From a virus: a DNA stretch of 26,367 nt. The translations under genes and the position numbers were made by a program. This document shows positions 13,751-22,145 of this stretch, piece by piece. The notes beneath the pieces were generated by a model that saw only the letters and a list, made by a program, of their open reading frames with translations, did no database searches and was not told the DNA's origin. The stretch is taken from positions 1 through 26,367 of IMG/VR virus record IMGVR_UViG_3300027754_000372; one strand, written 5' to 3'. The first letter of the stretch is position 1. Each line of letters starts with the position of its first letter.

Positions 13751-13766
13751 GGGTGCTCGAGCACCC
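13751..13766. repeat. 16-bp perfect palindrome
   Basis: GGGTGCTCGAGCACCC is its own reverse complement. Its right half forms the beginning of the first 16-bp tandem repeat. It could bind a dimeric regulator or form the edge of an iteron array. Confidence 0.6.
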
Positions 13767-13824
13767 AGCGGATCACGCACCCAGCGGATCACGCACCCAG
13801 CGGATCACCTGCACCCAGTGGCAC
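13761..13824 (+). repeat. Iteron-like tandem repeats, 16-bp period
   Basis: GCACCCAGCGGATCAC occurs three times without change at 13761-13776, 13777-13792 and 13793-13808. A degenerate fourth copy GCACCCAGTGGCAC follows at 13811-13824. Single half-copies (CACCCAGTGGGC at about 14154, CACCCAGTGAAC at about 14269) recur further right. The period is short for classical iterons but the exact conservation in noncoding DNA points to a protein-binding array. Confidence 0.75.
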
Positions 13825-13883: not shown

Positions 13884-13934
13884 GGGTGCAGGGGTGTGAC
13901 AGATTGACAGGATCTCGAGAATCCGGGTTTTGCC
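13884..13934 (+). repeat. Left arm of long inverted repeat
   Basis: A 30-base block, GGGTGCAGGGG (13884-13894) continuing through TGTGACAGATTGACAGGAT (ends 13913), is followed after 13 unrelated bases by GTTTTGCC (13927-13934). The same bipartite pattern occurs in inverted orientation at 14108-14157, with only one base insertion. TTGACA inside the block is a perfect -35 hexamer, but the expected -10 position holds GTTTTG in both arms, so promoter function is doubtful. Confidence 0.75.
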
Positions 13935-14107: not shown

Positions 14108-14157
14108 GGCAAAACATGGAACAGTGCCATCCTGTCAATCTGTCACACCCTGCACCC
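14108..14157 (-). repeat. Right arm of long inverted repeat
   Basis: GGCAAAAC (14108-14115), 13 variable bases, then ATCCTGTCAATCTGTCACA continuing to CCCTGCACCC (14129-14157). Read on the minus strand this is the left arm again, with one G missing, and the 13-base distance to GTTTTGCC is identical. The two arms face each other across 173 bases. Confidence 0.75.
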
Positions 14158-14219
14158 AGTGGGCAGCCTGTCGCGAGTGTGACAGACAGGCATACCCGCT
14201 GGGTGCTGAAATGTCATCA

Positions 14220-14238: not shown

Positions 14239-14273
14239 CAACCCGTAACCCGTAACCCTGTAAGGATCACCCA

Positions 14274-14492
14274 GTGAACAAGACAGCAACAGTCCAAATG
14301 GATCAGCAACAACTCGATGGGCTGCTGGCAACACTGCCAGAGGGTGCGAGAGTCACTCGCACCGACAGCCAGATCATCGTGACAGCCAGGTCGAACAGGA
14401 CTGGTCAGCTGGTCAACCCGATAGTGGCAACCCGCACAGCTGATCGCGGCTGGACTGTCACTGCACTTTTCGGACTGATCAGAATGAAGTAA
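14274..14492 (+). CDS. Small early protein, 72 residues, unknown function
   Basis: Starts with GTG 14274 (MNKTATVQMDQQQLDGLLAT), preceded by TAAGGATCACCCA, a good ribosome site. The protein is soluble with an N-terminal helix and a probable beta part (ARVTRTDSQIIVTARSNRTG, then IVATRTADRGWTVTALFGLI). It is the first gene of the rightward early cluster, directly after the control region. The family is not recognised. Being first and small, it might be a regulator or host-takeover factor, but nothing in the sequence proves this. Confidence 0.65.
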   Translation: MNKTATVQMDQQQLDGLLATLPEGARVTRTDSQIIVTARSNRTGQLVNPIVATRTADRGWTVTALFGLIRMK

Positions 14493-14500
14493 AAACCTGG

Positions 14501-14523
14501 CACCTGGCACACCCTGCCAGGTG
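14501..14523 (+). other. 9-bp stem-loop CACCTGGCA / TGCCAGGTG after first early gene
   Basis: CACCTGGCA (14501-14509) and TGCCAGGTG (14515-14523) are perfectly complementary with a 5-base loop, eight bases after the stop. There is no T tract afterwards (CTTCACC). The identical stem recurs at 16254-16274, so it is a repeated module, perhaps an attenuator or RNA-stability element. Confidence 0.55.
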
Positions 14524-14554
14524 CTTCACCTGTACCCGTAATCGAAAGCACCCA

Positions 14555-14653
14555 ATGAACGATGACCAGCATAGCGACCTGTCAATTCTGATCCTTGCAG
14601 CCTGCACCCTGGCAGGCTGCTGGGCTGCAATCGTTTGCTTGTTCACCCTGTAA
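14555..14653 (+). CDS. Tiny membrane protein, 32 residues
   Basis: The open frame ATG 14555 to TAA 14653 encodes MNDDQHSDLSILILAACTLA followed by GCWAAIVCLFTL. An acidic N-terminus of about 8 residues precedes one hydrophobic segment (9-32). Upstream AATCGAAAGCACCCA gives only a weak ribosome site. The Thr-Leu-stop end is supplied by the CCCTGTAA junction motif, the same as in two other genes of the cluster. This supports its being a true gene of the array rather than chance. Possible role: membrane modulation, superinfection exclusion or lysis timing; all unproven. Confidence 0.5.
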   Translation: MNDDQHSDLSILILAACTLAGCWAAIVCLFTL

Positions 14654-14678
14654 CCCGTAACCTGTAATCGAGACCATC

Positions 14679-15002
14679 ATGGCCAAAAAACCCACTTTCC
14701 TGTTGGCACTGCGCAATTCTGACCCAGTGCCCACACCCTATACCCCATTGATGTTCACCCGTGGCACGCAAACCCATCGCCTGGCACTGGTGAAACGATT
14801 TGAGCAGTGGCAGGTGTGCGACATTGGCAGTGGTGCCCTTGTCTTGAGGGTCAAAGCATCGTGGAAAGGGATCCCTGTCGACTCGCTCGGGTTGACGATT
14901 GCACAGGCTCGAGCGTATGCCCTCGTCGGACTCGACACCCTGGTCGACAGAATCGGACTGTCGAAGTTCGAGTCGGTGCTGTCGAACCCTAAACCGTTCT
15001 AA
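14679..15002 (+). CDS. Early protein of 107 residues, unknown function
   Basis: ATG 14679 in the context TCGAGACCATCATGG, which is shared with the gene at 15551. The product starts MAKKPTFLLALRNSDPVPTP and contains MFTRGTQTHRLALVKRFEQW, QVCDIGSGALVLRVKASWKG and SLGLTIAQARAYALVGLDTL. It appears to be a soluble alpha/beta protein with one Cys; the middle has alternating beta-strands and the end is helical. No known domain recognised. It is followed at 11 bases by the next gene. Confidence 0.7.
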   Translation: MAKKPTFLLALRNSDPVPTPYTPLMFTRGTQTHRLALVKRFEQWQVCDIGSGALVLRVKASWKGIPVDSLGLTIAQARAYALVGLDTLVDRIGLSKFESVLSNPKPF

Positions 15003-15012
15003 GGATCACACC

Positions 15013-15240
15013 ATGCGTTCACTGCACACCATCGCTCGAGACATCCGCGCCGACTGGGTCAACCCGTACTTCGGTGCTATCCCGTACTTGTCAGCGATGC
15101 TCTCACTCGACAGCATCGGGGATAGGTTCGGGCATGACAATGCTCGAAGCATAGTGCTCTATTTCCTGTCGAATGCAGGCAGGTGGAAGGGTCCAGTCGC
15201 TCAGGCTGTCAAGCTTGAGCTACGCTCGATGCTCAAGTGA
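15013..15240 (+). CDS. Conserved small phage protein, 75 residues
   Basis: ATG 15013 preceded by TAAGGATCACACC; a longer frame from 14899 overlaps the previous gene and is not needed. The product (MRSLHTIARDIRADWVNPYF, LSAMLSLDSIGDRFGHDNAR, SIVLYFLSNAGRWKGPVAQA) matches a pattern seen repeatedly in actinobacterial and proteobacterial phages: 'LH.IAREI..DW......A.PYL.AM..L......YG.D.A..IVLYFL.NA..WRG..AR.IK.ELK'. Those genes lie in early regions. Function is unknown despite wide spread; probably a small helical protein. Confidence 0.8.
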   Translation: MRSLHTIARDIRADWVNPYFGAIPYLSAMLSLDSIGDRFGHDNARSIVLYFLSNAGRWKGPVAQAVKLELRSMLK

Positions 15241-15277
15241 TCAGTTGTCAACCCCGTAACCCGTAAAGGATCACACC

Positions 15278-15532
15278 ATGCTTGCCATCACCACTGTTTA
15301 CGTTCCGGCCACGAACACCCGTAACGCTCGCATTGTTGCCAGTACCTGCAATGGGCACAAAGTGAGTCAGCCTGTCGATTACGCACTCGGCGACATCGAA
15401 CGACACTTTGCTGTCGCTCAGGCACTGGTGCGCACTCAATTGAACCATGCCCCTAGTTCTGAAACCATGGTTTATGGTGGGACAGTGAAGGGCTATGTTT
15501 TTTGCTTTCCCGCATCGACAATCACCCTGTAA
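15278..15532 (+). CDS. Early protein of 84 residues, unknown function
   Basis: ATG 15278 with the context AAAGGATCACACC, nearly identical to that of the gene at 15013. The product (MLAITTVYVPATNTRNARIV, ASTCNGHKVSQPVDYALGDI, ERHFAVAQALVRTQLNHAPS) suggests a short beta-hairpin followed by a helix. Its 3' end ACC CTG TAA is part of the junction motif, giving the C-terminus ITL. Not recognised as a domain; resembles uncharacterised small phage proteins that modify or bind nucleotides only in general size. Confidence 0.7.
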   Translation: MLAITTVYVPATNTRNARIVASTCNGHKVSQPVDYALGDIERHFAVAQALVRTQLNHAPSSETMVYGGTVKGYVFCFPASTITL

Positions 15533-15550
15533 CCCGTAATCGAGACCATC

Positions 15551-16240
15551 ATGAAATTCCACTTCGTAGCAAAGAGTGCCAACAGCAAGACAGGTCCTAT
15601 CCCTGTCACCTATTCGGAGCGAAGCACCTGTCCACCCTCGTGCCCACACTATCGGTCGGACTGCTACGCTGAGGACTACCACACGAGGATGTCATGGGAC
15701 AAGGTGCCGATGAGGGGTGGCAGCATCGATGCCCTAGCTGCATCGATTGCAGCCCTGCCACCTGGCACGTTGTGGAGACACAACGTAGCGGGAGATCTGC
15801 CAGGTGAAGGTGAACAGGTCGACCCTGCACAGCTGGGTGAGATTGTCTGGGCAAACCGTGGCAGGTCTGGGTTCACTTACACACACAAGAAAAGTCCCGA
15901 TGCATTGTCATGGGCAAAGCACGCGACAGCATGGGGCTTTACAGTCAACTTGTCGGCTGATGATGCTGGCGAAGCAGACACCCTGGCAGCTACAGGTCAG
16001 CCGACAGTGTGCATCGTGCCCATGGATACACCCTCAAAGACCACCACACCTGCAGGTCGACCCATCATCGTCTGCCCTGCACAGACCCGTGATGATGTTA
16101 CCTGCCAGACCTGTGGACTGTGTGCTCGGGCTGACAGGACCGTAATCATCGGGTTTCGTGCCCATGGCACCAGAGCGAAGCTTGCAGATGCTAGGTCTCG
16201 TCGCGTGATCCCGATTGCTCGCTCTGCTGCTGTCGTTTGA
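15551..16240 (+). CDS. Cysteine-rich phage protein (DUF7227-like), probable metal-binding
   Basis: 229 residues from ATG 15551, same start context as 14679. Two cysteine groups are visible: C27-x3-C31-x6-C38 in STCPPSCPHYRSDCYAED, and C175 plus C185-x2-C188-x2-C191 in IIVCPAQTRDDVTCQTCGLC. Between them are RHNVAGDLPG (76-85), GFTYTHKK and GFTVNLSADDAGEAD. This combination is a recurring phage/plasmid family of unknown function, somewhat like the Gp37/Gp68 group with its 'CYAE' motif. Seven or eight conserved-looking Cys suggest Zn or Fe-S binding. It is the largest member of the junction-motif gene array. The name DUF7227 is from memory and should be verified. Confidence 0.7.
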   Translation: MKFHFVAKSANSKTGPIPVTYSERSTCPPSCPHYRSDCYAEDYHTRMSWDKVPMRGGSIDALAASIAALPPGTLWRHNVAGDLPGEGEQVDPAQLGEIVWANRGRSGFTYTHKKSPDALSWAKHATAWGFTVNLSADDAGEADTLAATGQPTVCIVPMDTPSKTTTPAGRPIIVCPAQTRDDVTCQTCGLCARADRTVIIGFRAHGTRAKLADARSRRVIPIARSAAVV

Positions 16241-16253
16241 ACCTGCACCCTAT

Positions 16254-16274
16254 CACCTGGCATGGTGCCAGGTG
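16254..16274 (+). other. Second copy of stem-loop CACCTGGCA / TGCCAGGTG
   Basis: CACCTGGCA (16254-16262) and TGCCAGGTG (16266-16274) pair perfectly with a 3-base loop, 14 bases after the stop of the Cys-rich gene. The stem is identical to that at 14501-14523 and both are followed by TTCACC after zero or one base. No T tract is present. Confidence 0.55.
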
Positions 16275-16294
16275 TTCACCCTCGAAGGATCCCC

Positions 16295-16453
16295 ATGACT
16301 GCTCCCATCGTTTCTTTGGTTTTCCTCACACCGAACAATGCTTGGGTGTTCCTGTTTGGTGACAGTCTGCTCAGACTGCCAGAGCACCCTATGTTTTTTG
16401 CCAGCAAGTCCGATGCACTGGCTGCAGCCAGTGCAGCCGGATTGACCCTGTAA
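16295..16453 (+). CDS. Small early protein, 52 residues
   Basis: Start ATG 16295 (MTAPIVSLVFLTPNNAWVFL) with CTCGAAGGAT upstream; the longer frame from 16262 starts inside the hairpin and is less likely. The product continues FGDSLLRLPEHPMFFASKSD and ends AALAAASAAGLTL-like (exact end SAAGLTL), where the last codons and stop are the junction motif. It looks like a small beta-sheet protein with a helical end. A similar 'FLTPNNAWVF..GDSLLRLP..P..F.SK..A..AA...GL' layout is known in uncharacterised phage proteins; function unknown. Confidence 0.68.
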   Translation: MTAPIVSLVFLTPNNAWVFLFGDSLLRLPEHPMFFASKSDALAAASAAGLTL

Positions 16454-16479
16454 CCCGTAACCCTCGAAGGATGATCCCC

Positions 16480-16698
16480 ATGACTGCTAACCTATTAAAC
16501 CTGGACCCTGTGGAATCGGAGCGTATCGCCTACGCTCAAGGGTTGCCTGTGGCTGCACTGTTGAATCGCATCATCGAACGGGACGAGAAACTCGAGCTAG
16601 CCTGGACCCTGTGCAGGGCTTATGAGACCTATGGCACCGATTGCGACGAGTTCACCGATGCTCTCAATGCTCTCAAAGGAGCATTCGACAATGAATGA
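16480..16698 (+). CDS. Small early helical protein, 72 residues
   Basis: Start chosen at ATG 16480 (MTANLLNLDPVESERIAYAQ), because GAAGGA then has eight bases of spacing and the context matches that of the gene at 16295. The alternative ATG at 16471 touches the Shine-Dalgarno. The product is acidic and helical (GLPVAALLNRIIERDEKLEL, AWTLCRAYETYGTDCDEFTD). Its stop lies inside the start of the next gene. No domain recognised. Confidence 0.68.
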   Translation: MTANLLNLDPVESERIAYAQGLPVAALLNRIIERDEKLELAWTLCRAYETYGTDCDEFTDALNALKGAFDNE

Positions 16699-16912
16699 AC
16701 CCTCGTTCATCGAGACCCTTAGGGGTCTTGCTGCCAGGCACAGTCTAGACAAGGTCCAGACTGCAGCCCTGATGGGGGTGTCAGTGTTCACCCTCAGGCA
16801 CTGGCAGGCAGGCACGCGAACCCCTACAGCATCGGCTGTGCGACTGCTGTCCGTCTTGTGCCTGCTCGAGACCCTGGCACCAGATCTGCTGGCAGCACTG
16901 GTGCCCGCATGA
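16691..16912 (+). CDS. Cro/XRE-like helix-turn-helix protein, 73 residues
   Basis: ATG 16691 overlaps the end of the previous gene by eight bases; a longer frame from 16622 would overlap it more. The segment DKVQTAALMGVSVFTLRHWQ AGTRTP (residues 20-45, quoted in two parts) has the classical helix-turn-helix pattern: A at position 5, G at 9, and a recognition helix V-x-TLRHWQ followed by G-x-R-xP. This is close to HigA or Cro-type regulators. It is probably a DNA-binding regulator of the early or late operon, and the six TGTCACAC sites or the inverted repeat at 13.9-14.2 kb are possible targets. The target link is inference. Confidence 0.78.
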   Translation: MNEPSFIETLRGLAARHSLDKVQTAALMGVSVFTLRHWQAGTRTPTASAVRLLSVLCLLETLAPDLLAALVPA

Positions 16913-16971
16913 TCACTGCCATCCTCGTCGGACTGCTGGCACTGCTGCTGGCAGCAGTGTTGGACCTGTAA
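16909..16971 (+). CDS. Very short hydrophobic peptide, 20 residues
   Basis: ATG 16909 overlaps the stop of the HTH gene (ATGA) and the frame ends in TAA 16971. The product MITAILVGLLALLLAAVLDL is entirely a membrane helix. Its stop is again part of the junction motif (CCTGTAACCCCTAA). The tight coupling and shared end favour a real gene, but at 20 codons it could be chance. It would be the last gene of the array, three bases from the convergent primase stop. Confidence 0.4.
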   Translation: MITAILVGLLALLLAAVLDL

Positions 16972-16974
16972 CCC

Positions 16975-19479
16975 CTAATCGTCGTTCCCGTAAGCCCCCT
17001 GTGCGCCATGCACTCGGGGCTTTTCTTTCGTGCTCAGTTTGTAGATCTCGTCAAGTTGACGCTGCTTCGCTGCAATGACCTGTGCCCTGTGCCCACTAAA
17101 CTGATGACGTAGCTGGGGATTGATTGCCCACTTGGCAAAATGCTGGTTTTCACGCGTGCCATCATCCATCCTGGCCACCCAGCCTGCCGATTCCAGGCCC
17201 TGCATGGCACCTAGAACCCACTGATCAGCAGTCCAGGCGGGTACACCCTCAAGTTGACGCCTGGCACCTCTTTTAACGTCCGACAGCGTAATGTCTGCCT
17301 GGTCGCAATAGTGCAGGATGTAATCCATCACCCATGCTTCAAAGGGTGATGTCCCTCCCACTTCACCGAATGCGTATCGGAAGGCCGGGATCAGATACCC
17401 TCGAATGAACCCGATTACCCTGTGGATCACACTGGCCGACACTGTCGGGTTGAACGGGTCTTCGATAACGTGGAACAGCAGTGCCAGCCTGCCAGCCGTT
17501 CCCTCAAGCTTGCCGAATGCTGTCATAAACGTGTTGCCAGCCTGCAGCAGTCGCTCGTCGGCTTTGCTCGACTCGTACCATGCTTGGAACCCCCTATAGG
17601 CGTCGAACGCATCGGGTGCCAGCCTGTAGGTCTGCACTGGCAGCGCGAAAATCAGCCGCAGGGTCTGTTCCCACGCTGCCGCACTCGTCAAGCACTCTGG
17701 AACAGGGTTGCCCAGCCGGGTACGGTCTGCCCGTAGAATCGCAGGGATGAATCGCTGGATCAGTCCATCGGCTGAAAGTGAGGCAATGCTTTGCCTGAAC
17801 ACTTGGGGCTGGATGTTCCCGTAGACTGACACTGCCAGGTTCTCGGCATGGATCGACCCAGCCCCGACACGGTCCATTTCATACCGTTCCGACTCGTAAC
17901 TGACCACCCACGCTGACCTATCCTCACCACTGGTCTTGTCGGTGAGTTTCTTCACCCAACTGTTCATTTCGTCCAAGTGGCACAGCAGGCCACGCGGTCG
18001 GTCGGCAGCCTGGCGTACCAGTTTCTGGGATGTGATGTCGGAAACCGTTATCTTCATGGGCACCGGCTGGGGTGGCAGATCTGGCACGCTGGGTGCCTGG
18101 TCTGCCCCAAGCATCGCGTCGGTGCTGGCGCTGAACTCGAGGAAGGACTTCTTGGCGCTGGCATATGCTGCTTCTTTGCCTTCCCAGTCGAGCAATGCCC
18201 GTTGATACCGGGGACGATCGTCTGCTTCGATGTTCTTCAATGGGGACAGCATCGGTCGACTGCCGGGTGACTTTTTGTCGGCCGGATCGCCGAGGGTCAT
18301 CAGCCAGAGCACTGGCGGCACCTTAAACCCTGGCATCAACTCGAGTCGGATCTGAGCATCGACCACACCACAGACTGCACTCAAACCAGCGAACAGGGGC
18401 ACCAGGGGATCACACCCTACGCTGTCGCTGATCTCGTTCGCTCGGGTTTGCAGGATGCTAGGGAACAGGGTCAGATCGATGTCGGGTGGCGCTGGCCGCA
18501 GCCCTGCCAGGATGGTCTTTGGGGCTGTCGGCACTTCCACTTTGCCAAAAAGTGACGCGGCATCGGGCATCGGTCGGGTCCATCCAGCTCGGCGGGCAAT
18601 GTGGAACAGTGTCCCCAATGTGACAGCAGTTGCTTTGTCGACCTTGAAGCTGGCCCACTGGGTGGCAATCTCGCGGTCGCCTGGGTACTTCCGCTCGCTC
18701 TGGACCGACCACTGTTGCCACAGATGGAACCCCTGGTCGAGTTGCTCGGTCTGGGTGCCTGCCCAGTGCAGCGCCATGCCGATGCTGATCCACTCGTCGC
18801 GTGGACAGTTTGGCGTAATGCACTCGATGGCGTTGTTGATCTCGTCCCAGGATGCATCCACACCTTCGCTGGTGCGGATCTGTCGAACCTTGTCCTTCTC
18901 GAGCATGTCCTGCCACAGATCAAGCAGTGGCTGGGGGATCGTCGGCAAGCGCATCCAGTTGCCGCAGCCTGCCCATCGGTACGGTTGCCGGGTGTCTGGG
19001 TGGATGCTAGGCGGCAGCACATCCTGCACAGTCAACCCGTTGGCCGTCGCGCATCGGAGTTCGTAAGTGGTCTCGCCGCCGACGATGATCTTCTTCGACG
19101 CCAGCGCTAGGCCGGCAGGCATCGCGTAGAGCAGCTTCCCGTGCCCCAGCCTGCCACTGTCGATGACCACCGCATCGGATGCGGCGTAGAGTTCCCCGAT
19201 GTTGATCCCCTGCAGGCCGAGCACCATCGCCGTCACATCCCAGTTGTCGATGTCGAGAGCCATCGTGCCACTGTAAGCGTGAGCTAGGCCAATGCCATAG
19301 CCTGGTGGCAGATCGCTCTGGGAGGTAAGTGCGTTGGGCTTGAGGTTCCATCCTGCTGTGCGCGGTCCCTTGGTCCCTGATGGGATGGGCACCAGGCTCC
19401 ACCCATGCCTGATGTACGCATCGACCGACGCCGGGTGCTGCTGCACCTGGTTGGGGACTGGGATCGCTTGTGCTGTCAT
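16975..19479 (-). CDS. Prim-Pol / PriCT-2 / DUF3987 primase-helicase
   Basis: 834 residues from ATG 19479 (MTAQAIPVPNQVQQ), with AAGG six bases upstream; the frame extends to 19578 but lacks a better start. The N-terminal 180 residues form a bifunctional primase-polymerase: MALDIDN (D76, D78), SGRLGHGKLLYAMP (H113 region) and LPPSIHPDTRQPYRW (H160). PriCT-2 follows at about 208-300 (WDEINNAIECITP...DEWISIGMALHWA). A DUF3987 helicase-like domain from about 335 has a Walker-A-like GDPADKKS (397-404) and Walker B LLCHLDE (D503, E504), with YGNIQPQV at 553-560. It would prime and unwind at the phage origin. It alone in the right arm runs on the minus strand. Confidence 0.88.
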   Translation of the reverse strand: MTAQAIPVPNQVQQHPASVDAYIRHGWSLVPIPSGTKGPRTAGWNLKPNALTSQSDLPPGYGIGLAHAYSGTMALDIDNWDVTAMVLGLQGINIGELYAASDAVVIDSGRLGHGKLLYAMPAGLALASKKIIVGGETTYELRCATANGLTVQDVLPPSIHPDTRQPYRWAGCGNWMRLPTIPQPLLDLWQDMLEKDKVRQIRTSEGVDASWDEINNAIECITPNCPRDEWISIGMALHWAGTQTEQLDQGFHLWQQWSVQSERKYPGDREIATQWASFKVDKATAVTLGTLFHIARRAGWTRPMPDAASLFGKVEVPTAPKTILAGLRPAPPDIDLTLFPSILQTRANEISDSVGCDPLVPLFAGLSAVCGVVDAQIRLELMPGFKVPPVLWLMTLGDPADKKSPGSRPMLSPLKNIEADDRPRYQRALLDWEGKEAAYASAKKSFLEFSASTDAMLGADQAPSVPDLPPQPVPMKITVSDITSQKLVRQAADRPRGLLCHLDEMNSWVKKLTDKTSGEDRSAWVVSYESERYEMDRVGAGSIHAENLAVSVYGNIQPQVFRQSIASLSADGLIQRFIPAILRADRTRLGNPVPECLTSAAAWEQTLRLIFALPVQTYRLAPDAFDAYRGFQAWYESSKADERLLQAGNTFMTAFGKLEGTAGRLALLFHVIEDPFNPTVSASVIHRVIGFIRGYLIPAFRYAFGEVGGTSPFEAWVMDYILHYCDQADITLSDVKRGARRQLEGVPAWTADQWVLGAMQGLESAGWVARMDDGTRENQHFAKWAINPQLRHQFSGHRAQVIAAKQRQLDEIYKLSTKEKPRVHGAQGAYGNDD
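16992..17028 (+). terminator. Intrinsic terminator of the early array, embedded in primase 3' coding end
   Basis: AAGCCCC (16992-16998) pairs with GGGGCTT (17016-17022). Inside, GTGC (17001-17004) pairs with GCAC (17010-17013) across a 2x2 mismatch. TTCTTT follows immediately. This is a convincing rho-independent terminator for plus-strand transcription arriving from the small-gene array, 20 bases after its last stop. The same bases encode the last residues of the oppositely oriented primase gene. Confidence 0.72.
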
Positions 19480-19562: not shown

Positions 19563-19766
19563 ATGCCACCCACCCCACAATTCGATACGCACATGACCGT
19601 CAGGGTCGCTGCGCGTGTCCGTTCCGCGTTCCACCGCAAGGCAGAAAGGTACGGGAGACCGTCCGATGTCTTGCGGGAACTCATCGAGGCGTTTCTTGAT
19701 GATCGACTTGTTATCCAACCCAACCCCCGTAAGGAATCGTTATATGTCCCTCGAACTCAAGATTGA
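19563..19766 (+). CDS. Ribbon-helix-helix (Arc/CopG-like) regulator, 67 residues
   Basis: ATG 19563 with GAGGA about six bases upstream. The segment HMTVRVAARVRSAFHRKAER YG (residues 10-31) followed by RPSDVLRELIEAFLDDRL (32-49) has the layout of a ribbon-helix-helix domain: one beta-strand (TVRV), helix A, a turn with RPSDVLR, and helix B. The last 18 residues are polar. RHH proteins bind DNA as dimers through the paired strands and often control their own promoter; the dyad just upstream fits. Its end overlaps the next gene by 23 bases. Confidence 0.82.
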   Translation: MPPTPQFDTHMTVRVAARVRSAFHRKAERYGRPSDVLRELIEAFLDDRLVIQPNPRKESLYVPRTQD

Positions 19767-20175
19767 AGCTCTCACTGCCGCCGTCATCGCTCTGACTGAG
19801 CGGATGGGTAGCGTACCAGCACCAGCAGTGGAGGCTGCGCCATTCTGGCCAACGGTTGCGCAGGCAGTTGCGCAACCCCTTGCGCAACCCCTTGCGCAAC
19901 CCCTTGCACCTGCACCCGTAGCGGCGCCAGCCATGCCAGCCCCTCCCACCTTTGCAGCTGTCCCTGCTGCACCGGTCCCGGTGGCAACTGGCGCACCGTT
20001 TAGCGATGGCAAGGGCGTGATTGACTACGTCATGGCATCGTACAAGGCCCTCGGTCCGCAGAAGGGTGCGCAGATCCAGGGTGTGCTGACCGGTCTGGGG
20101 TACGCCAACATCAACGAGGTCAAGCCTGAGATGTACGGTGCCCTCTACGCTGGTGTGGAAGCACTCAAGGGTTGA
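19744..20175 (+). CDS. Protein with helix, Pro/Ala-rich linker and small C-terminal domain, unknown function
   Basis: 143 residues from ATG 19744 (MSLELKIEALTAAVIALTER), supported by TAAGGA. Residues 1-22 are a likely coiled-coil helix. Residues 23-85 are a flexible linker of Pro, Ala and Val, with AQPL three times, encoded by a perfect 12-bp tandem repeat. Residues 86-143 (FSDGKGVIDYVMASYKALGP, then IQGVLTGLGYANINEVKPEM) form a compact domain. The layout 'oligomerising helix, linker, domain' resembles small accessory replication proteins encoded before DUF2800 in related phages. Its function is unknown. Followed by the nuclease gene two bases later. Confidence 0.75.
   Translation: MSLELKIEALTAAVIALTERMGSVPAPAVEAAPFWPTVAQAVAQPLAQPLAQPLAPAPVAAPAMPAPPTFAAVPAAPVPVATGAPFSDGKGVIDYVMASYKALGPQKGAQIQGVLTGLGYANINEVKPEMYGALYAGVEALKG
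19870..19905 (+). repeat. Three perfect 12-bp tandem repeats in linker
   Basis: GCGCAACCCCTT is repeated at 19870-19881, 19882-19893 and 19894-19905, in frame, so it adds or removes Ala-Gln-Pro-Leu units. The identity at third codon positions suggests recent duplication by slippage. Confidence 0.85.
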
Positions 20176-20177
20176 CC

Positions 20178-21458
20178 ATGAGCACCCACGCGAACCTAAG
20201 CCCGTCTAAGCGGCATCGCTGGGGCTTGTGCCCCGGATCGATCCGTGAGGAGGCGAAGTACCCAGACGATCGGTCTGGTCCAGCCGCCATCGATGGCACC
20301 CACACCCACACCATGCTCGAGTTCTGCTTGAGCGGTCCGTGGGAGCCTGAAGAACTGGTCGGTCAGACCATGCAGGATGACGATGGCAAGTTTATTATTG
20401 ACATCGAGCGTGCCCAGCGGGTCAGGATTGCCACTGACTACGTCAAGCAGCGAGTTGCAGAGCAGCCAGGCTGCATGGTCAGCGCCGAGCAGCGGGTTAA
20501 CCCGCAACGCTTGATTGCTCGGGATGACATGAGCGGCACCGTGGACATCCAGATCTACGGCACCGATGTGCTCGAGATCGTGGACTACAAAGACGGCATG
20601 GGCGAAGTGCAGGCCGAGGGCAACGCGCAGCTTGAACTCTACGCTGTCGGTGCCTTGGCTGATGTGGGCGAACCGTATCCGTGGAAACGGGTACGCATGA
20701 CGATCATCCAGCCCAAGATGGCGCTGCGTGGACTGCCGGCGATCACATCGCATGAAGTTGACATCAGCGAGATCATGGCTATAGTTGACCGCCTGGTGAT
20801 TGAGGGTGCTGCTGTCGATGCACCGGACGCACCGCTGGTGCCGGGTGAGAGTCAATGTAAATTTTGCAAGGCGAAAGGCTCATGCGCCGCCCTTGCAAGT
20901 AACGTAATGAAGGAGATCGGAATCATGTTCCAGCCTACAGTAATGTCACTCGATGTGGCGCAGCAGAGCGCCAATAAAGATCCATCCACGATGGATGACG
21001 CCCAGATCTTGCAGATCATGGAGGCGGCACCGCTCATGCGCCAGTTGCTTGAGGGCGTGGAGACGGAAGCACTGCGCCGGCTGAAGTCTGGCCAGGCGAT
21101 CACTGGCCTGAAGCTTGTCAACGGTCGGGGTTCTCGCGCCTGGGCGTTTGAGGACGATGAGATCGCCGAGAAGTTGATCAAGATGGGCATCCCCAAGGGC
21201 AGCGTCTACGAGACCAAACTCGTAAGCCCAGCCAAGGCTGAGAAGCTGACCTGGGAGAAGCGCGACGGCACCAAAGTACAACTGACTGAGCGCCAACTCA
21301 AGCGCATGGAGCAGGAGTACGTCGTCAACATGGCCGGCAAACTCACCGTTGCAACCGAATCCGACAGCCGACCCGCTGTCGTAATGAACGCTGCGCCGTT
21401 GTTTAGCGCAGTCGAGGCAGCACCCGCTGCCGACGCCCTGCCCTCGTGGCTTTTGTAA
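20178..21458 (+). CDS. RecB-family Fe-S nuclease (DUF2800, Cas4-like)
   Basis: 426 residues from ATG 20178, AAGGG upstream. The N-terminus LSPSKRHRWGLCPGS is the hallmark of the DUF2800 family. RecB/PD-(D/E)xK motifs are visible: GTHTHTMLE (H44, E48), GTVDI (D123), EIVDYKDG (D136, K138) and QLELY (Q151, Y155). C18 together with C227-x2-C230-x5-C236 (CKFCKAKGSC) gives the four-cysteine iron-sulfur arrangement of AddB/Cas4/DNA2 nucleases. The C-terminal 190 residues are a helical extension. The gene stands with SSB, polymerase and helicase genes, so end processing or recombination during phage DNA replication is likely. Exact polarity is not predictable. Confidence 0.88.
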   Translation: MSTHANLSPSKRHRWGLCPGSIREEAKYPDDRSGPAAIDGTHTHTMLEFCLSGPWEPEELVGQTMQDDDGKFIIDIERAQRVRIATDYVKQRVAEQPGCMVSAEQRVNPQRLIARDDMSGTVDIQIYGTDVLEIVDYKDGMGEVQAEGNAQLELYAVGALADVGEPYPWKRVRMTIIQPKMALRGLPAITSHEVDISEIMAIVDRLVIEGAAVDAPDAPLVPGESQCKFCKAKGSCAALASNVMKEIGIMFQPTVMSLDVAQQSANKDPSTMDDAQILQIMEAAPLMRQLLEGVETEALRRLKSGQAITGLKLVNGRGSRAWAFEDDEIAEKLIKMGIPKGSVYETKLVSPAKAEKLTWEKRDGTKVQLTERQLKRMEQEYVVNMAGKLTVATESDSRPAVVMNAAPLFSAVEAAPAADALPSWLL

Positions 21459-21476
21459 TCAAACTGGAGTAATCAA

Positions 21477-22145
21477 ATGTCTGATGTTATTTTTCTCTCG
21501 GGTGTGCGCCTGTCGTTCCCCCACCTGGCCGAGCCGCAGCGCCAGATCAACGAGTTGACCGGCAAGGAGCGGATCTCGTACAACTGCGAGTTCATCATGC
21601 CGCAGGATCACGCCGGGTTTGGGCAGTTCATGGCTAAGTACGGTGCGATGTCGTTGGAGAAGTGGAAGGAGCACGCCAACACCGTCATGCAGATGATCCA
21701 GGGTGACCGCAAGACCCGCTGCTACGGTCGCGGCGAGGAGAAGGTCAACAAGAAGACTTTCCAGCCCTACGATGGCTACGCTGGCAATGTGTTCATCACT
21801 GCTGGCCGGGACTCGCAGCCCCAGGTGATCCAGGCCGATGGCCAGGCCATCGATCCGACCAACTCGATGGCTTACCAGCAACTGGCTCGCAAGATGTACG
21901 GTGGTTGCCGCGTCAACGCCGCCGTCAAGCCCTGGCTGCAAGACAATAAGCATGGTCGTGGCATCCGCTGCGACTTGATTGCTGTCCAGTTCGCTGCTGA
22001 TGACAAGCCATTCGGTGAGGGTGCTGTTGATGCGTCCAACTTGTTTGGCGCTGTGGCCGGTGCGCCTGCTGGCATGTTTTCCCCGACAGCCGCCATGCCT
22101 GCTGCTCCGTTTGCCGGCCTGCCGTCGTTCCTGACGGGTCAGTAA
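21477..22145 (+). CDS. Single-stranded DNA-binding protein (DUF2815)
   Basis: 222 residues from ATG 21477, with GGAG eight bases upstream. The sequence opening IFLSGVRLSFPHLAEPQ and the later YDGYAGNVFITAGRDSQPQV, MYGGCRVNAAVKPWLQDNKH and GIRCDLIAVQFAADDKPFGE are typical for DUF2815, the Enc34-type phage ssDNA-binding (OB-fold) proteins. The C-terminus is low complexity, rich in Ala, Pro and Phe, and ends PSFLTGQ; in SSBs such tails bind partner proteins. The neighbouring nuclease and polymerase genes support the role of coating ssDNA at the fork. Confidence 0.88.
   Translation: MSDVIFLSGVRLSFPHLAEPQRQINELTGKERISYNCEFIMPQDHAGFGQFMAKYGAMSLEKWKEHANTVMQMIQGDRKTRCYGRGEEKVNKKTFQPYDGYAGNVFITAGRDSQPQVIQADGQAIDPTNSMAYQQLARKMYGGCRVNAAVKPWLQDNKHGRGIRCDLIAVQFAADDKPFGEGAVDASNLFGAVAGAPAGMFSPTAAMPAAPFAGLPSFLTGQ

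Follow-up and report, generated by a model that had tools for sequence, protein, structure and literature searches.

A tandem repeat ahead of early start codons in a family of freshwater phages

Why should the boundaries between small, unrelated phage genes carry one and the same short repeat, and what is it for? This question is raised by a 26,367-bp virus record from IMG/VR (IMGVR_UViG_3300027754_000372), which was analysed over its whole length and is called the window here. In the window the late operon and the primase gene run leftward and the early/replication block rightward. At gene boundaries of this early block, between 14,242 and 16,993 (genes g1 to g10), units of CCC(T)GTAA are found on the + strand, singly or in tandem. 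A sequence-only reading of the locus had proposed either a cassette-like region in which genes are swapped by recombination at the repeats, or junctions acting in processing or translation control. Our comparison with related genomes suggests that, in one phage family, the element probably serves as a start-associated junction leader, acting at the RNA level and doubling as a joint for gene exchange.

An oriented array before early start codons

The window contains 11 copies of CCCGTAA (1.7 expected), 11 of 11 on the + strand and nearly always at early gene junctions, so the pattern that had been noticed in the sequence is real. Four of the five matches to CCCTGTAA lie within 14256-16453 (0.5 expected), and CCCTGTAACCCGTAA was counted three times. 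We could confirm the seven marked boundaries that had been claimed: three units precede g1, one lies at g1/g2, three at g2/g3 and two each at g4/g5, g5/g6 and g7/g8, and the end of g10 (CCTGTAA CCCCTAA) is the seventh. However, not every boundary is marked and not every copy is at a boundary. The array is absent at g3/g4, g6/g7, g8/g9 and g9/g10, with the start context alone being kept at g3/g4 and g6/g7, and CCCGTAA also occurs at 15318 within g5 and at 16987 beyond the last gene.

To place these counts in a wider frame, we used 82 loci carrying the DUF7227 gene (g6 in the window) as an anchored set; their selection rested partly on the motif or on resemblance to the anchor. Clusters of at least two units were present in 57 of the 82 loci. 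In the early region, 135 clusters lay on the coding strand and none on the other strand, and a single one was found elsewhere in 534 kb. A start codon follows 131 of the 135, nearly always 9-20 nt away. IMG/VR holds many further family members, and in an exact 15-mer search of its 2.9 million viral contigs an ATG reading frame came after the array in 144 of 151 cases among the matches listed. When repeated words were counted without reference to the motif, the commonest 10-mers of the early region were TAACCCGTAA and its frames, found in 51-52 of 86 non-redundant genomes. The carriers are freshwater phages of one large family, and presence is phylogenetically conservative, with 65 of the 82 scored genomes having the element, 17 lacking it and five changes on the anchor tree.

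The array could be a neutral by-product, arising when a good start block is copied and its short repeat grows by slippage, with no function of its own. The number of tandem units at one junction does differ between close relatives, and an unrelated start block has been amplified in other relatives, as this explanation would predict. We nevertheless consider it very unlikely, because the element is retained as described above and its core is the same ahead of many gene families, and because its position is held when genes change.

The array also reaches into the preceding gene. As the sequence-only reading had it, xCC-CTG-TAA writes the C-terminal Thr-Leu and the stop of g2 (-FTL), g5 (-ITL) and g7 (-LTL). 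Family-wide the pattern is -Leu-stop (CTG TAA), with Ser, Thr or Pro as the residue before, and at 27 of 46 abutting junctions the upstream stop lies inside the first unit. On the other side, the last unit is often fused with the Shine-Dalgarno (SD) sequence (GTAAAGGA, GTAAGGA) or stands before a unit-like SD (CCCTGGAGAA, CCCTTGAAAGG). The three main start contexts described earlier, TCGAGACCATC-ATG, AAGGATCACACC-ATG and CCCTCGAAGGAT(GAT)CCCC-ATG, were found again. One and the same gene has differing contexts among relatives, and different genes of one genome share contexts. Context identity was 0.586 between different genes within a genome, 0.472 between orthologues and 0.435±0.015 with genome labels shuffled, showing that the copies are homogenised within a genome.

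Gene gain, loss and exchange at the joint

The element leads 25 gene families in the anchored genomes and at least 65 over all loci. Matches to TreK-like, DUF7222 or DUF7249 phage families were obtained for some of these genes, in keeping with an early accessory role. For one family, F0, 50 of 56 orthologues have the element, or a variant with one unit, ahead of them; upstream of the remaining six lies coding sequence which, where it could be identified, is the end of F10, itself element-bearing. As far as sequence comparison goes, the element marks a position and not a gene.

This is most evident for family F1 (g2 in the window), which ends in the first unit (xCC CTG TAA, giving -Leu-stop). 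In different phages F1 is joined via the element to about 20 unrelated downstream genes (21 families by C-terminal signature, a few of them possibly not F1). Two loci, L021 and L038, are near-identical up to the ATG and unrelated beyond it. The slot behind F1 is occupied by F5 (with or without F33), F38, F6, F11, F23 or F27, mostly ahead of a conserved F14 and a helix-turn-helix gene.

The window's own clade consists of five distinct relatives with a g6 that is 90-93% identical. Compared with the window, L124 is without g4, L007 without g1 and g5, L079 without g1, g2 and g7, L126 without g1, g3, g4 and g7, and L062 without g1, g2, g5 and g7. The motif is kept where these whole genes are missing. 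After loss of g5 (L007, L062) the end of g4 (CTCAAGTGATCA) passes directly into the array and the start of g6, and after loss of g4 (L124) a three-unit array stands right after the g3 stop and is followed by g5. The prediction that motifs stay and gene content between them varies is thus largely borne out; moreover, in this clade the motif is not scattered and the relatives keep it. These genome comparisons show that exchange, insertion or loss of genes has occurred at the element. They do not by themselves show recombination to be its selected purpose.

Since the block is common, nearly letter for letter, to many junctions within and between related genomes, it has served as a joint for insertion, loss and exchange. 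Homologous or annealing recombination between the shared copies would be the most likely route, plausibly by a phage annealing protein and an exonuclease; the families present in the window include a Gp2.5/annealing-type protein and a phage exonuclease.

Are the repeats then kept in the first place for swapping early accessory genes by recombination, with any role in translation being incidental? The presence or absence of whole genes at the joints of close relatives, the alternative occupants of one slot, the homogenised contexts and the variable unit number all argue for this explanation. So does a pair of sister phages whose repeated block is another one: L148 differs from L180 by exactly two additional genes, which lie between repeated GGAGATCAGACGAATG blocks. 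However, early boundaries without the motif turn over as much, indicating that the motif is not required for swapping, and homology is already supplied by flanking conserved genes. Furthermore, the F1-to-F0 junction, the commonest marked junction in the wider family, is stable, and selection for future exchange would be difficult to sustain. We therefore regard this explanation as unlikely, and the cassette-like region proposed at the outset stands in so far as genes are exchanged at the motif, but not as a peculiarity of marked boundaries. A model of cassettes only was rejected, since adjacency diversity was no higher at marked boundaries (genes were called by a simple, crude scripted caller, and the genome pairs are not independent).

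Downstream of the DUF7227 gene, L148, L176, L180 and L154 carry a block GGAGATCAGACG(A)ATG in up to five copies and no GTAA array.

A proposed junction leader, its alternatives and described repeats

The site of the element is the translation-initiation region, and the RNA predicted there is unstructured: the minimum free energy of the leaders was -4.9, as against -8.2 for shuffles of the same leaders, -16.3 for random windows of the early region and -15.8 for motif-free starts. These results favour the translation-control option of the sequence-only reading as the selected function.

Promoters and hairpins were counted by consensus searches. A sigma-70-like promoter with an operator-like palindrome lies 7-29 nt upstream of the motif at 24 of 65 first junctions and at 2 of 88 later ones; five of these promoters match 12 of 12 positions. 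With the first copy just downstream of a promoter in many relatives, the element would lie in the 5' leader and at the internal junctions of one early transcript. The array as a promoter was rejected, because an SD follows within a few bases of the last unit and promoter-like sites occur almost only upstream of the first copy. Hairpins (perfect stem of at least 7 bp) stand a few nucleotides ahead of the motif at 8 of 37 F1 junctions (background 1.6%, P=1×10−7) and are absent at most junctions. Their sequence differs from genome to genome and their loop is often GNRA-like.

In relatives, the promoter spacer carries a palindrome ACCCGCTGGGT/ACCCAGTGGGT, and this location within a consensus sigma-70 promoter makes the palindrome probably an operator of the early promoter. 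Up to 39 of 86 genomes have the palindrome (ACCCAGYGGGT / ACCCGCTGGGT) repeatedly in their early region, and in many relatives it lies upstream of the first motif; in the window it is found at 13761-13808 and 14154-14204. No consensus promoter was found in a search of the window, including the divergent control region that separates the late operon from the early one. The same control region contains a 43-nt inverted repeat (79%) with TGTGACAGATTGACAGGAT at 13892-13934 and 14108-14150.

We suggest that the element is a block on the early mRNA, consisting of the previous stop or an optional hairpin, two to five tandem CCC(T)GTAA units, the SD and the ATG. Such a block would prevent structure where the ribosome lands on each cistron and set that region apart from the neighbouring cistron, and a previous stop set near the next start may favour translation initiation or re-initiation.

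Several observations weigh against this junction leader. Conservation of the unit GTAACCCGTAAC is stricter than an unstructured spacer would require, a hint of a specific reader. A number of early and replication genes work without the element, related phages that lack the array have a different repeated start block (GGAGATCAGACGAATG), and turnover is, as stated, equally high at unmarked early boundaries.

A specific reader would make the array a recognition site, through which an RNA-binding regulator, a processing enzyme or a stoperator-type DNA repressor of phage or host origin controls the early cistrons together. The array could then be a family-wide cistron tag by which the factor selectively translates or protects early phage cistrons. 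Its asymmetry, strict orientation, many copies, strict sequence and tandem units agree with a recognition site, as do the optional hairpin just upstream and the helix-turn-helix gene in the same operon. On the other hand, the early promoter already holds a separate palindromic operator candidate, and the number and spacing (6-8 nt) of the units are variable. An Rfam search gave no family match (a single sub-threshold match was on the opposite strand), and the stoperator sequence of L5-like (cluster A) phages is not enriched in the window (10 matches to the 13-bp consensus GATGAGTGTCAAG, 8.1 by chance). Like the element, stoperators are numerous asymmetric, oriented sites lying in short gaps between genes, but they are DNA sites of the immunity repressor, also found in promoters (PMC9283540), whereas the element is situated at the ribosome-binding site and includes stop codons. 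We consider a recognition site, and likewise a cistron tag, conceivable but rather unlikely. If the tag did exist, any gene landing behind it would at once come under phage control, and the early operon would be a platform into which genes for host takeover or counter-defence could be plugged for expression.

Other candidates were discarded. Mimicry of 16S rRNA was suggested by the junctions of L275, which match its 3' end (GTAACCGTAxxGGAACC), but the mean score over 105 junctions equalled that of shuffles. Three TAAs can cover the three reading frames with 7-nt units, as a stop cassette for all frames should, whereas arrays of 6/7 nt do not; conservation of this property is lacking. A G-quadruplex on the template strand is not conserved, the G runs of the reverse complement being 1-3 long in other lineages. 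A host-derived repeat or prophage was dismissed, as relatives of g6 were not found in GTDB genomes. Inspection by eye only revealed no likeness to TRAP, Hfq or boxA sequences.

The sequence-only reading knew of no described system with this motif. This holds for the motif sequence, but cluster K mycobacteriophages have a start-associated sequence (SAS; PMC3203893), and Microbacterium phages have repeats (PMC7302621), of the same anatomy. SAS occurs in 11-19 copies per genome, in one orientation and directly upstream of the starts of many gene families; the stop of the upstream gene is sometimes included, an inverted repeat lies directly upstream in about half, and a role in translation initiation has been proposed (PMC3203893). 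The element described here is likewise an asymmetric repeat in many copies and a single orientation directly upstream of start codons. In contrast to the SAS consensus GGGATAGGAGCCC, which includes the SD, CCC(T)GTAA arrays precede a separate SD, their unit is tandem and variable in number, and the sequence of their hairpins is variable. We show exchange of genes at the element, and the phages are predicted to infect Pseudomonadota. In the window, the 13-bp SAS consensus had 3 matches at 3 mismatches (6 expected). We found no relation of the window to cluster K mycobacteriophages, the nearest named phage being DSL-LC05 and the other listed matches mainly phages of Pseudomonadota and cyanobacteria. 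Between genes of Microbacterium phages of clusters EC, EF, EG and EI, motifs recur at starts or 14-30 bp upstream of them and are common to phages otherwise little alike (PMC7302621); sequences and hosts differ from ours, and these motifs have no tandem GTAA array. Given the differences in sequence and lineage, the element appears to work like these repeats without being a member of either group.

The nearest named phage is DSL-LC05 (OR003940), with 67% nucleotide identity over the g6 region and 75% amino acid (aa) identity of the DNA polymerase; a family 'Luchaoviridae' has been proposed for it (PMC10611076). Three of its early junctions have CTGTAACCCGTAACCGTAA or CCCGTAACCGTAA, with unit lengths (6/7) and start contexts unlike those of the window, and its DUF7227 gene is not motif-led. 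The word 'repeat' is absent from the paper on this phage (PMC10611076).

Start-associated repeats of actinobacteriophages have been noted for more than ten years with no function assigned, and the same anatomy is now seen in an unrelated, abundant freshwater family whose hundreds of sequenced members allow the element to be parted from the gene by comparison. The element stays while genes change, its leaders are predicted to lack structure, and it marks slots in which small early genes are interchangeable; the function of such repeats thereby becomes directly testable. Its sequence can also be used to list early accessory genes, which possibly act in counter-defence.

Features of the window

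All features below are on the + strand. Junction element 1 (14242..14263) reads CCCGTAA CCCGTAA CCCTGTAA and is followed by the SD AAGGA and the GTG start of g1 (14274..14492; 72 aa, no family), which is found in one of the five close relatives. A hairpin at 14500..14524 (GCACCTGGCA-cAccc-TGCCAGGTGC), similar to the inverted repeat of an extended start-associated sequence (ESAS), lies just upstream of junction element 2 and recurs ahead of the motif in L124, L007, L079 and L062. Element 2 (14535..14541) is one CCCGTAA, then TCGAAAGCACCCA-ATG of g2 (14555..14653), a small membrane protein of 32 aa whose stop lies inside element 3 (14646..14667; CCCTGTAA CCCGTAA CCTGTAA). This is followed by TCGAGACCATC-ATG of g3 (14679..15002; 107 aa, no family). 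The g3/g4 boundary (15000..15012) has only the TAA stop and the context GGATCACACC; g4 (15013..15240; 75 aa) belongs to phrog_13953. Element 4 (15252..15266; CCCCGTAA CCCGTAA) leads by AGGATCACACC-ATG into g5 (15278..15532; 84 aa, weak match to phrog_3199), which stops in element 5 (15525..15539; CCCTGTAA CCCGTAA), and TCGAGACCATC-ATG then opens the anchor gene g6 (15551..16240; 229 aa, DUF7227, PF23872).

Another hairpin, CACCTGGCATGGTGCCAGGTG, at 16254..16274 lies ahead of the g7 start context CCCTCGAAGGATCCCC. Gene g7 (16295..16453; 52 aa) stops in element 6 (16446..16460; CCCTGTAA CCCGTAA), then comes CCCTCGAAGGATGATCCCC-ATG of g8 (16480..16698; 72 aa, no family, alternative start 16471). 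The helix-turn-helix protein g9 (16691..16912; 73 aa, weak HTH_31, phrog_2104) has no motif ahead and is named 'repressor protein C' in the DSL-LC05 annotation. The hydrophobic peptide g10 (16909..16971; 20 aa) ends in the terminal element 7 (16965..16978; CCTGTAA CCCCTAA), which closes the early cluster and is kept in close relatives. Immediately past the last unit, between the convergent early cluster and primase, inspection revealed a terminator-like inverted repeat AGCCCC...GGGGCTTTTCTTTC (16993-17029), which had escaped the scan owing to its long loop.

The lone CCCGTAA pointed out earlier before the gene at 19744 proved to be a true instance: at 19725..19732 it reads CCCCGTAA (MSLELKIEALTAAV...), and homologues in relatives have the full two-unit form CCCCTGTAACCCGTAA at the same place. 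Inside the coding region of this gene, tandem 12-bp copies of TTGCGCAACCCC (19856-19903) encode an Ala/Pro/Gln-rich linker. The start of ssb (21430-21477) is preceded by a GTAA-rich spacer, TGTAATCAAACTGGAGTAATCAA-ATG, and that of the relatives' ssb by CTGGAGTAACTGTA-ATG; these spacers are perhaps degenerate units.

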